Positions 13,964 to 40,038 of a DNA stretch of 64,000 nucleotides are shown in pieces (position 1 is the first letter of the stretch; each line of letters opens with the position of its first letter). Position numbers and translations under genes: made by a program. The stretch lies in assembly GCF_025602895.1 (NCBI RefSeq), contig NW_026516231.1:124001-188000 (forward strand), written 5' to 3'. The DNA is from Polychytrium aggregatum (lineage: Eukaryota; Chytridiomycota; Chytridiomycetes; Polychytriales). The notes beneath the pieces are model-generated. The model was not told the DNA's origin. It searched no databases and saw nothing but the letters and a program-made list of their open reading frames with translations.

Positions 13964-14567
13964 ATTGTCGTCAGCAGCGAGCAGGGGAATGCAAGGGGAG
14001 GCAAGAGTTGGTGGGTCGAAGGAAGGGCAAGCCGGGGAGGAATGCAAATGCAGAACGGAAGCAAGAGGCCACGGAGAGACCGAGAGTCAACGCCCCAAAG
14101 ACAAGGCGGATGATGGCGGGGAAGACAGGTGCCGAGACGACGATCTAATGGCCGGAACAGGGCCGTCTATATAAGAGCTGGGTGCCGGGACGCTGAATCC
14201 GTGATGGCGATGGATGGCGACAGGAGGTGGTTGGATCGCCGCTGCTGCTGCCGCAAAGAAAAAGGCACGGCCGACGGCGAGCGGGATGAGGGACCGACAA
14301 AGAGTGCTGCCGAGAAGACGACCCGAGTCGAGACAGAGCGACGGATTGACAGGACGGCCAGCTTGCCCCAGGCGACGAAGCGCTGCCCTCGACGGACAGG
14401 AGACGGCCGAAACATCGGGGCAGAAGCAGCGGGTTTGGCTTTGGCTTTGGCTGTGGGCCTCGGATCGGCGCTGTTTGTGTGGCCAGCGTCGCAGAAGGCC
14501 GAATCGGGCGCTTGTGCTCAGGGCCTTGCCGAGGGGATGGCGCGGCTCGATCTGGCTGGTCTGGATA
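13964..14567. other. Spacer between the ERD1-like gene and the Fanzor element
   Basis: Upstream region of the ERD1-like gene with a TATA-like string at 14167-14173. No gene seen. It ends in the TA dinucleotide (14566-14567) that flanks the Fanzor element. Confidence 0.5.
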
Positions 14568-15415
14568 TCACTATCAATTTTTTCCGACTCCCTCGCGGCT
14601 GTTCATCTCGGTCACCTGAAAGTCACGTTGGATGTGGTGCAGCAAAAGTTGGAATCCGGCCATGGTCCGTTGAAGGCATTTGATATCACCTTGAGCCGAT
14701 TGACGGTGGTGGTGGGCAATTGGTGTGGAGGAATGACCAATTGTATCATTGTTGGAAGCTCCACTCCGATTGCGAACAAGAACCACCACCATCTGAATCT
14801 CTCTGGTTGGAAACCTAGTCAAGCGTGGCTGTGTGTCAGCGAGATGACATGATCGTTTGGCTATCAGGCAAGACTCACCTTGACAAGATGTCTTCCCACG
14901 ACTGATTGAGCGAGCGATGCGTTTCTGGATCTGAATCAAGGACGCCACTGCGCAGTATCTCTGCCAGCCCAAAATGCGCTGGTTTTGAGGAGATTCTTTC
15001 TTCCCCAAGGGCAGAACTGTCATGAACCGCGTTCCCACGCCCGGTGGATGGTTTCATGGGCGCCCCAACCCGTGTCCTGTTTTCTTGATGTGCAATGTTG
15101 GGTAAGGCACTGACATGAAACCTCCCGGCGGGCGAGGGAAACGTTCGGATCTAATTTCCCCCCGTCGCAGATAACTAATCTCCCTTGTAGTGGAAGAAAA
15201 ATCTGCGGCGAACAAGGACGGCGTTTAGAGATATAAACGAGGTGCTGTGGCCTCAGAACCAGCACCTCACCTTGCCTCTTGTATCCTGCCCTTAGCCTAT
15301 TGAATACACTCCCCTTCGTCCTACGACCGTCCGTTCGACTACCATCAGCTGTCTGGTGCCAAAGTCCAGCTCCGTTCCTGACAAGAACCAGCCATCGCTG
15401 CTATTTTCTCGCCAG

Positions 15416-17805
15416 ATGGCTCCCAAGCGAAAGACACCCCCCGATCCCGACCCGGGATCACCCAGTGACTCTCCTGTGGCCAAGAAACCCGTCATCAAAT
15501 CGTGTCGTGCCTGTGGCCTGACCAACCATGTTAGGCCCTTTACCAAGAAGTGCACAGCCAGAATCGACAGCAGCCCTGCCTCGGTCGCTGAAATGGTCAG
15601 CCAAGCACCCAAGGTCCCTGTATGTGCCACGTGCAAGCAAGAGGGTCATGCCAGAAGCAACACCCCAAAGTGCCGTTTCTATAACCCACTCTGGAGCTCT
15701 ACCCTGCCTGGCTGTGGCCCAACGAGCAAGTCAAGGCCGATTACTCGATCATCAAGTGCACCCTCGATGCCATCATCAAGAACGACACCTTGCACGACAA
15801 GATCGAGGAGACTGTCCGGGCCATGACACACGTGCAGTACGAAGCATCTCGTCTCCTGGAGCTGCATCTCAGGCGGTGCTTGGACGAGGGCATCACCCTC
15901 CCCACCGTGTCGTCGAGTGAACCCGCGTTTGTTCGAAAGTGCTTCAATATGGTGCAGACAGGAACAGTGGGTGCCAGGACAAACACCCCAAAAGATGACA
16001 GGCACATCCTCGACACATATGAGATGTACCGAAGTACATGGGGAAAGTCGTGTGTCCTGCCTCCAGTGTCCCTCCCGAAGGGTACTGGCTCGCAGGTTCT
16101 CGCATTGGCTGTCAAGACCTATGCTGTCAACTGCGAGACCCACATCGTGGATCGATACTGGTCTCTCCTCCGTCGATACTGCAATTTGGTCCTGGTTGCT
16201 CCCAAGGATGTGAAACGTCATACACACGTCGATGAGTGTATGAAGCTGATGGAGAATCCCCTCTCCAAGACACTCCTCGGTGATCTGAGGAAATCCTTCG
16301 CCCACCATGCCGACCAGTTGTATGAGTTTCGGTACGAAAGCCACCAGGACCTGTATCGAGTTGTATCGAAACTGGCCAGTGAAGTCTCTCGGCTGACCCA
16401 CCTGAAGGAGGCCCTCTTCATGGTGGTCTTTCAGAAGATGATCATTCCCAGGCTCGCGAGGGTGACCGATGTTCTAAAAGGAGAGCGTGGGCGACTGAAC
16501 GAGGAGATGTGCCAACCCATCCACCACATCGGGGCTGACAGACTCAAAGATCTCCAGACCCAGCACGAGGAGGTGTGCAAGCAGATCGCTGTGAACATGA
16601 AACGGATCAAGCGCATCACCGACCGGCTTGCCCAGACCAAGAAGCGCCTCAACATCCCTCGAGCACAGTGTACCTTGGTCCCGCTCTGCGATGCCAGAGC
16701 CAAGTACATCAAGCTCGACACCAAAGCACTGTGGGAAATCCTTGGATACCAGACTGGCACTGGTCTCAAGTGGGACGACCTGAAGACCAAGGTCAATGGC
16801 ACCACAAAGCAAGAGACCTTCTGGTAGACCAACTTCAAGCTGGAGTCGAGACTCTTTGGTGCCAGGGAGGAAGGCAAGCAGCTCTTTGGTTGCGAGATCA
16901 CCGATGGGGTCGGGTGCTCGATCACCACACTCAAATACAAGATCCTGGAGAAGGATCCTGATGTCAAGCCAGAACCCGTGGACAAGACACCCAAGCTCAC
17001 TCCCGAGCAGAGGATCCAGGCCAGAGTCGGTCCCATCGACGACTCTCGGACCACATGGATTGGGATCGACCCTGGTGTGGGATCGATCTTCGCCGCTGTC
17101 ATTCGAGCACCCGGTCAACCATCCATCCAGGAGCAAGACGGTGTCAAGGTGACCAAGGCACAGCGCGCCAACGAGAAGATCGTGTCGTTCTCCAACAAGG
17201 AGTACCAGCATCGATGTGGCACCACCCAGGCGACCAAGTGGATCCAGAGCACCCACAAGATCCTTGGTCTGCAGGAATGGATGAGCACCACACCAAGTCC
17301 CAAGATCCCTGGGTTGGCTTCCTTCCTGCAATACATTCGCCATGTGTTCGATGGAGACATGCTGGACAAACAGCTGTACTTCAGCCTGACCCGGCGACGG
17401 CGATTCAAGCGACTCGATCTCCACAGCAAGCGACAGCGCACCGTCCACGAGATGTGCAAGCAAGTCATCGACCAGGCACCGAAGGAGACCGAAGTGGTGA
17501 TTGCCTTTGGGAATGCATCCTGGAAACAGGGGAAGGGATATGCCTCCAGTCCCAGGAGACTCAGGTTCGTCAAATACTTTGAGCAATTCCACCATCACCA
17601 GAGACGCCCACCAGACCGATCCGTCTCCAAGATCCATGTGTGCTCGGTGAACGAGTTTAACACATCCCAGGTGTGCTCACACTGCCGGGAAGCCAAGCGA
17701 CTTGAGAAGGTCGAGCATCTTGATATCGAGAAACCACACTTTGTCCGGAGCTGTGCAAGCTGCCATACGCTGTGGGATCGAGACATCAATGCGCCAGGAA
17801 TATGA
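15416..17805 (+). pseudogene. Fanzor (eukaryotic TnpB-like) RuvC nuclease, broken by frameshift and stop
   Basis: Fanzor proteins are RNA-guided DNA endonucleases carried by eukaryotic transposons. ATG at 15416 opens MAPKRKTPP, basic and NLS-like, then two Cys-rich knuckles (CRACGLTNHVRPFTKKC; CATCKQEGHARSNTPKC). The frame shifts by one base between about 15685 and 15700 and continues (LYPAWLWPNEQVKADYSII) through a long helical region. A TAG at 16825-16827 interrupts it, and the same frame resumes (TNFKLESRLFG). RuvC-I is WIGIDPGVGSIFAAV with its Asp. VVIAFGNASW lies at the usual RuvC-II place. A candidate displaced Glu is in VNEFNTSQVCSHC. The four-Cys zinc ribbon is CSHC plus CASC, and RuvC-III is WDRDINAPGI. 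About 795 residues including the break, in the Fanzor1 size range. No intron explains either lesion, so this copy is probably inactive unless the lesions are sequence errors. Confidence 0.85.
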
Positions 17806-18295
17806 TCTCGGTATGCCAGTCGATCATCGCCACAGGAGATCGACCGGGTGTATTCAAGACTGTGCTTCCCAAACCAACCAAAACCACTCGATTGCCAACG
17901 AAGTCAGGAGTGCAATGCCATGGCCTGCCCACTGGGCCTACAAGTCAGTCAGCGGGCTTCAGAAGCCAGAAAGTGACTGTCCCGTTTCTTTATGGATTGA
18001 CTGTAAGTATCTCGCACTGTTCCTTGAGTATTTCGACAGTGGATGCCGGGTCGCCCATATTCTGGGCAGTCCACTTCGGGGTTGCCATCCCTCTTGGGAT
18101 GGTCGATGGGAGGTGGTTGACTCCCTTGTGCAAAGTGTGTGTGTGCAAAGTGTGTGTGTGTGTGACGGCGAGAGGCTTCTCGCCTTCCCTCGGGGGTCTC
18201 TCGCCAGAGACTGCTCTTCTCGCCGACCGAGGTGGCTCCGAGAGCGCGTTTTATCGTTCTCGCTCATTTTATTAACAAGAACTTTTTTCATAGTG
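17806..18295 (+). ncRNA. Candidate guide-RNA (omega/fRNA) region at the right end of the Fanzor element
   Basis: In known Fanzor and TnpB elements the guide RNA scaffold comes from the 3' end of the gene and the right end, and the guide is read from the adjoining host DNA. Here the 490 bases after the stop are conserved with 39512-40038 although the second copy has lost most of the coding region. They contain a hairpin at 18165-18182 (GGCGAG AGGCTT CTCGCC) and another at 18194-18209 (GTCTC TCGCCA GAGAC). The predicted guide would begin in TACGGTGCGACCGCTGGGAG. Boundaries and transcription are inferred. Confidence 0.4.
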
Positions 18296-38180: not shown

Positions 38181-38890
38181 GGCGGCTCAACCAGCGCGAG
38201 CAGACGAAGAACACGATCGCTGACGGGAATGTTCCCGGCACAAAGAGGGACATCCCGATCACCGCATTCACGACTGCAATAATGGACTTGGGCCTGTACA
38301 GTTGATCCAGAAGAAACGGGACAGTCACTTTCTGCCCTTGGGCAAGAGAGCGAAAGTCGAGGGTGTGGCGAACGGTCATGGCAAGTAAGCGTTGGTGTTG
38401 GGCAGCAACATATCTGCTCAACGACTAACACTATCAATTTTTTCCGGCCCCTCGCGGCTGCTCATCTCGGTCACCTGAAAGTCACGTTGGATGTGGTGCA
38501 GCAAAAGTTGGAATCCGGCCATCGTCCGTTGAAGGCATTTGATATCACCTTGAGCCGATTGACGGTGGTGGTGGGCAATTGGTGTGGAGGAATGACCAAT
38601 TGTATCATTGTTGGAAGCTCCACTCCGATTGCGAACAAGAACCACCACCATCTGAATCTCTCTGGTTGGAAACCTAGTCAAGCGTGGCTGTGTGTCAGCG
38701 AGATGACATGATCGTTTGGCTATCAGGCAAGACTCACCTTGACAAGATGTCTTCCCACGACTGATTGAGCGAGCGATGCGTTTCTGGATCTGAATCAAGG
38801 ACGCCACTGCGCAGTATCTCTGCCAGCCCAAAATGCGCTGGTTTTGAGGAGAATTTTTCTTCCCCAAGGGCAGAACCAGCCATTGTCGCT

Positions 38891-39511
38891 ATTTTCTCGC
38901 CAGATGGCTCCCCGCAAGCGAAAGGTACCACCCAGGCGACCAAGTGGATCCAGAGCACCCACAAGATCCTTGGTCTGCAGAAATGGATGAGTGCCACACC
39001 AAGTCCCAAGATCCCTGGGTTGGCTTCATTCCTGCAATACATTCGCCATGTGTTCGATGGAGACATGCTGGACAAACAGCTGTACTTCAGCCTGACCCGG
39101 CGACGGCGATTCAAGCGACTCGATCTCCACAGCAAGCGACAGCGCACCGTCCACGAGATGTGCAAGCAAGTCATCGACCAGGCACCGAAGGAGACCGAAG
39201 TGGTGATTGCCTTTGGGAATGCATCCTGGAAACAGGGGAAGGGATATGCCTCCAGTCCCAGGAGACTCAGGTTCGTCAAATACTTTGAGCAATTCCACCA
39301 TCACCAGAGACGCCCACCAGACCGATCCGTCTCCAAGATCCATGTGTGCTCGGTGAACGAGTTTAACACATCCCAGGTGTGCTCACACTGCCGGGAAGCC
39401 AAGCGACTCGAGAAGGTCGAGCATCTCGATATCGAGAAACCACACTTTGTCCGGAGCTGTGCAAGCTGCCATACGCTGTGGGATCGAGACATCAATGCGC
39501 CAGGAATATGA
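38891..39511 (+). pseudogene. Deleted Fanzor nuclease remnant
   Basis: The ATG region (ATGGCTCCCCGCAAGCGAAA, near 38904) is joined out of frame to the C-terminal third of the nuclease. The retained frame (TTQATKWIQSTHKILGLQKW onward) keeps VVIAFGNASW, the VNEFNTSQVCSHC and CASC zinc ribbon, and WDRDINAPGI. It lacks the RuvC-I GIDPG aspartate and all N-terminal domains. It cannot encode an active nuclease. An open frame of 248 codons (38765-39511) runs through left-end DNA into this part, but there is no sign it is a designed fusion. Confidence 0.85.
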
Positions 39512-40038
39512 TCTCGGTATGCCAGTCGATCATCGCCACAGGAGATCGGCCGAGTGTATTCAAGACCATGCTTCCCAAACCAACCAAAACCACTCGATTG
39601 CCAACGAAGACAGGAGTGCAATGCCATGGCCTGCCCACTGGGCCTACAAGTCAGTCAGCGGGCTTCAGACATCTGAAGCCAGAAAGGGAAAGTGTCCCGT
39701 TTCTTTCTGGATTGACTGTAAGTATCTCGCACTGTTCCTTGAGTATTTCGACAGTGGATGCCGGGTCGCCCATATTCTGGGCAGTCCACTTCGGGGTTGC
39801 CATCCCTCTTGGGATGGTCGATGGGAGGTGTTTGACTCCCTTGTGCAAAGTGTGTGTGTGCAAAGTGTGTGTGTGCAAAGTGTGTGTGTGCAAAGTGTGT
39901 GTGTGTGACGGCGAGAGGCTTCTCGCCTTCCCTCGGGGGTCTCTCGCCAGAGACTGCTCTTCTCGCCGACCGAGGTGGCTCCGAGAGCGCGTTTTTTCGT
40001 TCTCGCTCATTTTTTTAACATGAAATTTTTTCATAGTG
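39512..40038 (+). ncRNA. Candidate guide-RNA (fRNA) region of deleted Fanzor copy
   Basis: Homologous to 17806-18295. The hairpin GGCGAG AGGCTT CTCGCC (39910-39927) is preserved. A 15-nt repeat (CAAAGTGTGTGTGTG) has four units here and two in the full copy. If transcribed, it could still give a guide RNA working in trans with an intact Fanzor elsewhere, reading into AAAATTCGGGGTGTCCCG beyond the right end. This is inference. Confidence 0.35.
39847..39906. repeat. 15-nt tandem repeat in Fanzor right end
   Basis: Four units of CAAAGTGTGTGTGTG; the full-length element has two at about 18131-18160. Confidence 0.9.

Follow-up and report, generated by a model that had tools for sequence, protein, structure and literature searches.

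A decayed Fanzor-bearing transposon of CACTA type in Polychytrium aggregatum, with a candidate guide-RNA block and a one-sided insertion motif

What is a broken Fanzor nuclease gene doing on an element that carries no recognizable transposase, and could the nuclease help that element to persist? The question is raised by a 64,000-nt stretch of the Polychytrium aggregatum genome (assembly GCF_025602895.1, contig NW_026516231.1, positions 124,001–188,000, forward strand), hereafter the window, which is C212:124001-188000 among the 418 contigs (64.7 Mb) that we searched. The explanation that we put forward, and to which we give about an even chance, is that the locus represents one decayed member of a multicopy transposon family of EnSpm/CACTA type that lacks a transposase; it carries a Fanzor (probably a Fanzor1) and, immediately internal to its right end, a candidate guide-RNA scaffold, and the two would act through the retention steps proposed below. 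Its established part comprises the ends of the element, the 3-bp duplications, the existence of tnp2 elements with one common 13-nt terminus, the intact copies, the low divergence of the right-end block and the left-sided insertion motif. The window copy itself is an ordinary-looking dead copy of an unusually rich and informative family.

A Fanzor gene on a CACTA-type element

The features of the two copies present in the window are as follows (positions in the window).

14566..14568, no strand: left target-site copy, TAT (the right copy is TAC, hence an imperfect duplication)
14569..18295, + strand: whole Fanzor-bearing element, 3,727 bp, with CACTAT...ATAGTG ends; homology among copies ceases at both ends
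14569..15017, + strand: left non-coding end, common to full-length and short copies
15018..15383, + strand: optional segment, missing from many copies, with a short direct repeat at the junction
15416..17870, + strand: Fanzor gene, broken by three lesions; apparent end of the conserved protein near 17870
15503..15673, + strand: two Cys/His knuckles (CX2CX4HX7C), recognized in the sequence; zf-CCHC match (0.0067) below cut-off
17062..17076, + strand: RuvC-I (GIDPG), recognized in the sequence and invariant in four of four aligned intact copies
17650..17793, + strand: RuvC-II glutamate in alternative position (NEFNTSQVC), zinc ribbon and RuvC-III (DRDINA)
18040..18250, + strand: conserved non-coding block with several hairpins, candidate omega/right-end RNA scaffold, interrupted by a microsatellite at about 18126-18166
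18283..18295, + strand: right terminus, TTTTTTCATAGTG; as its reverse complement, it equals the left terminus of tnp2-bearing CACTA elements
38429..40038, + strand: second copy, a deletion derivative of 1,610 bp, with a perfect TAA duplication, the same right block and the same frameshift at codon 794

The ends of the family read CACTATCAATTTTTTCC and GAAATTTTTTCATAGTG, the window copy reads GAACTTTTTTCATAGTG, and the inverted match between the two ends is short, about 6 nt. Thirty copies were read in all, ten of which (second alleles, copies lacking an end and second forms at a scored site) were omitted from site scoring; an identical 3-bp duplication was found at 11 of the 20 distinct sites thus scored, where chance alone would give about 0.3. 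A search with the 18 nt of the left terminus, allowing a single mismatch, gave 119 places in the assembly, versus 0 for the control, a number that includes short copies and, like all genome counts given here, alleles, the assembly containing many allelic-looking contig pairs that appear to be unmerged haplotypes (e.g. C212 and C418). No tnp2-type transposase was found by Pfam in the three open reading frame (ORF) pieces of the window element, which can therefore be at most a non-autonomous CACTA member; its ends and duplications suggest that this is what it is.

Complete relatives with a transposase are present in the same genome. Transposase_21 matches were found at 29 places, 28 of them marked over the cut-off, and the complete 5.7-kb element found at each of two loci (L029 and L030) has a Transposase_21 match over cut-off and perfect 3-bp duplications; a weak, sub-threshold DUF4218 match was also detected in the one tested for it (L029). 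The ends of these elements read CACTATGAAAAAA...TTTTTTCATCGTG. Ten more tnp2-type copies agree with them at the left end, and nine of the ten at the right end too; exact 3-bp duplications flank six of the 12 tnp2 copies, the right end of one of the 12 being unread. The terminal 13 nt of their left end are the right terminus of the Fanzor element read inward. Altogether, the window element resembles EnSpm/CACTA transposons in its CACTA ends, its 3-bp duplications and this one shared terminus, but differs from them in that it lacks a transposase, carries a Fanzor and a conserved non-coding block, and has a largely dissimilar left end. We also observed, at about 8329-8366 in L029, two CACTA elements in inverted orientation with about 40 bp between them.

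A survey published in Science Advances in 2023 reportedly describes several Fanzor carriers. The list of carriers may extend to CACTA elements. In the sources cited here, all of them excerpts, the carriers given for Fanzor1 are Mariner, Sola, IS4, Helitron, MuDR, Crypton and hAT elements (PMC3627910 among others), and the literature searched, which did not include that survey, yielded in the portions available no pairing of Fanzor with CACTA; the excerpt of one paper that mentions both Fanzor and EnSpm names them as separate repeats.

The identification of the protein as a Fanzor is supported by a match of the C-terminal piece to the Pfam family Cas12f1-like_TNB (PF07282; E 1.1e-7, 32.4 bits against a cut-off of 26.3) and by the combination of DPG with a displaced RuvC-II glutamate, a published Fanzor signature (PMC10711439). 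All the motifs that the original prediction had listed from the DNA alone were recovered, namely an NLS-like N-terminal start (MAPKRK), two Cys-rich knuckles, RuvC-I, a zinc ribbon (CSHC...CASC) and RuvC-III. Four aligned full-length copies, 88–92% identical to the first, all display GIDPG, the displaced glutamate, C-x2-C ... C-x2-C and D-x-D-INAARN, with six residues between the glutamate and the first cysteine of the zinc ribbon (E747-FNTSQV-C754). The TnpB/Fanzor signature D-x(125,275)-[TS][TS]-x-x-C4 zinc finger-x(5,50)-RD (PMC3627910) is present as D552, T750-S751, C754/C757/C780/C783, five residues and RD (the majority form; DQD in L009). On the other hand, the pro-Fanzor TnpB expression DPG-x(120,160)-E plus C-x(12,18)-C (PMC10711439) does not match, the corresponding spacings being 192 and 22 residues; since this expression was designed for prokaryotic TnpBs, the discrepancy weighs against the prokaryotic pro-Fanzor TnpB group only.

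Neither the window piece nor the four full-length copies gave a convincing match in PDB searches, and SpuFz1 (8gkh) was reached only with a profile widened with the sister family described below (Cas12m 0.0033, TranC 0.0081, SpuFz1 0.0095, mimivirus L79 0.018). In that search, Cas12m and TranC score as well as or better than SpuFz1, whose best stretch alone has an E of 0.054; the SpuFz1 match is the only one that continues through the RPxVFxxxxP stretch, to two residues short of the SpuFz1 C-terminus. The TnpB/Cas12f2 models of NCBIfam matched far below cut-off. No viral relative was confirmed by a scan with just two N-terminal peptide patterns, a weak negative. A structure prediction of the 325-aa window piece without alignment (pLDDT 34.6) was not used. 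The Fanzor1 type proposed in the original prediction is likely rather than proved: the protein is probably a Fanzor1 and not a Fanzor2 because its carrier is a non-IS607 eukaryotic transposon.

The gene had been placed at 15416..17805 and credited with only two lesions, a frameshift near 15685-15700 and a TAG at 16825. It does consist of three open pieces, 15416-15826 in frame 2, 15685-16827 in frame 1 and 16828-17805, but comparison with a syntenic copy, L009, on contig C418 (98.9% identity over 7.5 kb, probably the other haplotype) reveals three lesions: a frame switch at codon 103, which lies at about 15,711–15,724, the TAG (16825-16827), exactly where it was predicted, and a frameshift at codon 794 (about 17,790–17,796). 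This last lesion implies that the stop at 17,805 is not the native end; comparison with the sister family and with another locus, L109, suggests that the conserved protein terminates near codon 820, at about 17,870. The mobile element (14,569–18,295) extends well beyond the coordinates given in the original prediction. Of the 21 long copies compared, only that of the window has the first two lesions, while the codon-794 frameshift is also found in the short copy of the window and in L033, which makes a sequencing error at that place unlikely. Introns were ruled out, the L009 frame (901 codons stop to stop, 861 aa from the ATG) being open through all three places. The window gene is thus broken and could at most supply RNA.

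Intact relatives exist elsewhere, as anticipated. Four of the 20 other long copies read (L009, L012, L014 and L019) are free of lesions from the MAPKRK start past codon 820, the remaining 16 being broken or cut short. A protein search of the assembly (123 matches scored of 1,160 candidates) gave 50 matches spanning query residues 1/2 to 322–325, 34 of them in frames that run 850 aa or more between stops (hand counts, allelic pairs included). A DNA search with a 1,001-base query (40 copies scored of 75 candidates) gave matches 88–98% identical to the query, the window itself aside. The suggestion that the window copy was active recently found no support, as the same site is occupied on a second, 98.9% identical contig and the other scored copies are 88–93% identical to the window copy over the 1,001 bases of the query.

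The insertion-site motif and the retention proposal

Reading leftward from the element, the last three bases before it are the duplication, and all 11 sites with an exact duplication read [A/C][T/C][A/C] at positions -4 to -2. Because the base classes were chosen on these 11 sites, only an independent set counts as a test; it was drawn from the left flanks of 40 of the 72 listed exact left-terminus matches, with already-read sites excluded and eight repeats dropped, and the right ends of the resulting 32 sites are unread. At these 32 sites the three positions conform in 28, 28 and 27 cases, and all three do so in 22, against 11% expected (p 1e-14); T is the first duplicated base in 20, and G occurs at -4 in just one (p 7e-5). 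At the 20 fully read sites, the first 11 included, the motif [A/C][T/C][A/C]N is one-sided: left in 14, right in none. We therefore regard [A/C][T/C][A/C]N just left of the element as a candidate target-adjacent motif. By eye and without counting, several insertions lie just upstream of an ATG (right flanks of L022, L024 and L025).

How could such a bias arise? In the retention steps that we propose, a tnp2/CACTA transposase would mobilize the element in trans; transcription would leave through the right end, so that the guide of each copy would be the DNA adjoining its own insertion; and intact copies would provide the protein. The RNA–protein complex would then cleave a matching empty site when the 4 bp to its left are [A/C][T/C][A/C]N, repair from the filled copy would reinstate the element, and insertions beside the motif would build up. 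The filled site itself would be spared: the element's own right end puts a G at -4 (CATAGTG), and hence would not match the motif. The insertion sites would then be a natural imprint of the Fanzor target-adjacent motif, insertions persisting mainly where the motif lies on the guide side, through re-cutting of the empty site and copying back, with the deletion derivatives acting as guide-RNA donors served in trans; we advance this part tentatively, considering it possible but rather less than probable. The same logic, with a guide taken from the insertion site and an empty site that is cut, has been proposed for the retention or gene drive of IS200/IS605 TnpB elements (PMC11870625), whereas the chassis here is a eukaryotic cut-and-paste one and the logic is read from insertion sites alone.

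A comparison is offered by the SPu-1 element, which we take to be the SpuFz1 family of Spizellomyces punctatus. The motif of SpuFz1 is CATA (PMC10432273), compared to the candidate [A/C][T/C][A/C]N here; if SpuFz1 and SPu-1 do belong to the same family, CATA likewise ends in the putative target-site duplication, which is TA for SPu-1 (PMC3627910).

The strongest competitor holds that the left-sided motif is a target preference of the mobilizing transposase, aware of orientation because the two ends differ, and that the Fanzor is irrelevant to it; we consider this quite plausible, if somewhat short of an even proposition. Target preferences are common among transposases, and the motif overlaps the duplication. 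Yet the motif is largely missing from tnp2 copies with the same right terminus, whichever way they are read (2 of 12 in one orientation, 0 of 11 in the other; Fisher p 0.003 and 6e-5), and a transposase acting equally on its two ends would not usually give a one-sided motif.

Several observations weigh against our own proposal. The tnp2 sample examined for the motif is just 12 copies, and the left end of the Fanzor element resembles the ends of the tnp2 elements little beyond CACTAT, so the sampled enzyme may not be the mobilizer; another CACTA transposase with a target taste of its own is possible. Furthermore, a search with joined flank pairs detected no empty site among nine sites, and copying into an empty allele was thus unseen. 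At six of these nine sites a second, filled copy was found, in two cases in the short form. One such long and short pair, L024 and L038, occupies the same site on different contigs, with 98.4% identity over the left flank and left end and 99.7% over the right end and flank; its bodies are 94.7% identical, no closer than those of unrelated copies, and the left end taken alone is not closest to its own-site copy. The pair looks mosaic, perhaps through gene conversion. In the other long and short pair at one site on different contigs, L022 and L039, body and ends diverge to a similar degree and the nearest match of the body is the copy at its own site, so gene conversion is not shown there.

The retention idea has the merit of being testable from sequence, the genome offering open as well as deleted copies of one element, a sister family with a different chassis, and a site motif tied to orientation. 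It predicts the motif, the start of the guide and an absence of bias in Fanzor-free elements with the same ends. If it is true, the genome would contain many natural guides for one enzyme family.

The conserved block at the right end

Divergence was compared over 24 copies (16 long, 8 short), six second alleles having been dropped from the 30. The two halves of the right-end block, which are separated by a GT-rich microsatellite of very variable length (18126-18166 in the window and its equivalents elsewhere), have mean divergences of 1.42% and 0.68% in the long copies and 1.21% and 0.63% in the short ones. The ORF diverges by 6.3–7.6% in the long copies and its 3' part by 5.1–7.0% in the short copies, the terminus by 4.9–5.0% and the left end by 4.1–4.4% (24 copies). 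Divergence in the block is therefore roughly one quarter to one eleventh of that in the gene, whether the copy is full-length or deleted. Variants shared by at least two copies affect three of its 170 columns, compared to 118 of 573 in the adjacent ORF (p 1.7e-11), seven of 45 in the terminus (p 8e-4 against the block) and 54 of 449 in the left end, while private mutations are alike in the block (9 of 3,843 cells) and the ORF (51 of 13,360 cells; p 0.21). This pattern suggests that spreading lineages were under constraint and that single copies decayed afterwards. A 44-nt core of the block was found at 153 places with up to three mismatches, all of them exact among the matches listed. Its low divergence and its position make the block a candidate guide-RNA scaffold.

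Such a block could instead be a DNA-level cis element of the transposon subfamily, serving transposase binding, replication or a promoter, which is a possibility we take seriously without leaning towards it. It is linked to the chassis, being missing after the Fanzor frame of L109 and retained in short copies that lack a complete protein; moreover, part of the left end is about as well conserved, and the folding of the block is unremarkable. Against this stand the terminus, where a transposase must act, which is less conserved than the block (4.9% versus 0.7–1.4%), the absence of the block from L029 and L030, the two complete tnp2 elements read, and its location, which fits that of known Fanzor right-end RNAs as described in the available part of PMC10711439.

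The remaining difficulties for the guide-RNA and retention explanation concern this block. Its limits were set after the alignment had been viewed. The left end from about 14749 to 14928 is as conserved as the block (0.5–1.7%), and is possibly a promoter, an RNA or a cis element being considered as well; the optional segment, represented in fewer copies, diverges by 1.2%, and one 25-nt window of the ORF by 1.0%. The block folds just mildly better than shuffled sequences, with z values of -1.8 and -1.3 that do not surpass the -1.35 of a stretch of the ORF, and its near-invariance leaves no room to see covariation; no Rfam match was obtained for it. L109 matches the element to about 17,869, just after a frame of 879 aa that is open, and then has an unrelated right end, from which it follows that the block is not an obligatory companion of the Fanzor protein; nor does the block have a match in the sister family. 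Finally, an ORF pattern occurs at 285 places against 153 for the block pattern. As a control for block conservation, the ORF pattern was rejected as unfair: the window ORF carries a rare variant of it, the common form of which is itself well kept. Our confidence in the explanation and in its retention part is somewhat lower, and in the cis-element alternative somewhat higher, because conservation of the left-end stretch is close to that of the block and because the tnp2 elements share one terminus only.

Constraint on the protein, deletion derivatives and related families

Could the Fanzor be dead cargo, a passenger without effect on the spread of the transposon? We consider this unlikely. Over 16 long copies the ratio of nonsynonymous to synonymous divergence (dN/dS) is 0.29, which indicates that shared variation is under purifying selection, with constraint on the protein in the lineages that spread, and many copies have long open frames. 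The passenger hypothesis draws on the damage seen in 16 of the 20 other long copies and on the weak constraint on mutations private to single copies, which number 124 nonsynonymous and 79 synonymous in codons 1–793 of the long copies (omega about 0.64).

The short copy of the window lacks 15,443–17,217 as well as the optional segment. Junctions in the six other short copies first read match its own within a few bases, and two seen later have the same arrangement. That these copies encode a functional mini-Fanzor consisting of RuvC-II, the zinc ribbon and RuvC-III is very improbable: many do retain a frame of about 300 aa without stops, the shared region gives a dN/dS of 0.21 over eight short copies, and in L037 an in-frame ATG lies close to the start of the frame, but five of seven lack an ATG before the middle of the frame, the frame of L033 is broken, and private mutations (13 nonsynonymous, 8 synonymous; omega about 0.74) do not differ from neutral (p 0.33). 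Since private mutations are near neutral, the low ratio looks inherited from full-length copies, and the short copies are best regarded as probably non-coding. Note that the long and short copies of the window, separated by 24 kb, show an unusually high identity to each other (98.1%) and have the codon-794 lesion in common, and that the left end of the short copy is 99.8% identical to that of L009.

The window family can be compared with two described Fanzor elements. Like SpuFz1/SPu-1 (PMC3627910), it is a multicopy DNA transposon with a single ORF for a Fanzor that has a zinc ribbon and RPxVFxxxxP near its C-terminus; SPu-1, however, is about 2.1 kb long, encodes a 633-aa protein and is bounded by inverted repeats of 33 bp and putative TA duplications (PMC3627910), whereas the present element spans 3.7 kb, with CACTA ends, 3-bp duplications and an 861-aa frame that includes two N-terminal knuckles. 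The Fanzor1 element of SfAV, as described in the same portion of PMC10711439, is likewise non-autonomous and devoid of transposase, with a right-end RNA, inverted repeats and duplications, but is viral, belongs to an unknown transposon family and has two copies, compared to a CACTA-type chassis and a left terminus in 119 places here.

Other families of the genome carry related genes. The sister Fanzor family (L040-L043, L046, L107 and L108) is 58–60% identical to the window family in the C-terminal amino-acid sequence; it starts TA|CAGGCAATCC and ends ...GAATAAAGTG|TA, with TA on either side of the two copies for which both ends were read, and its right-terminus pattern occurs at 296 places. 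From these ends, it may be a mariner-like family. L109 (1-107), where a Fanzor frame is followed by an unrelated right end with the break at the end of the conserved protein, possibly represents a third chassis (one copy read). L044 and L045 belong to shorter Fanzor/TnpB-like families, with frames of 447 and 477 aa and a GEEYTSKTC zinc ribbon with displaced glutamate, which look Fanzor2-like. Of eight other long frames scanned, three have Pfam matches (VID27, DHHC and F-box/ankyrin).

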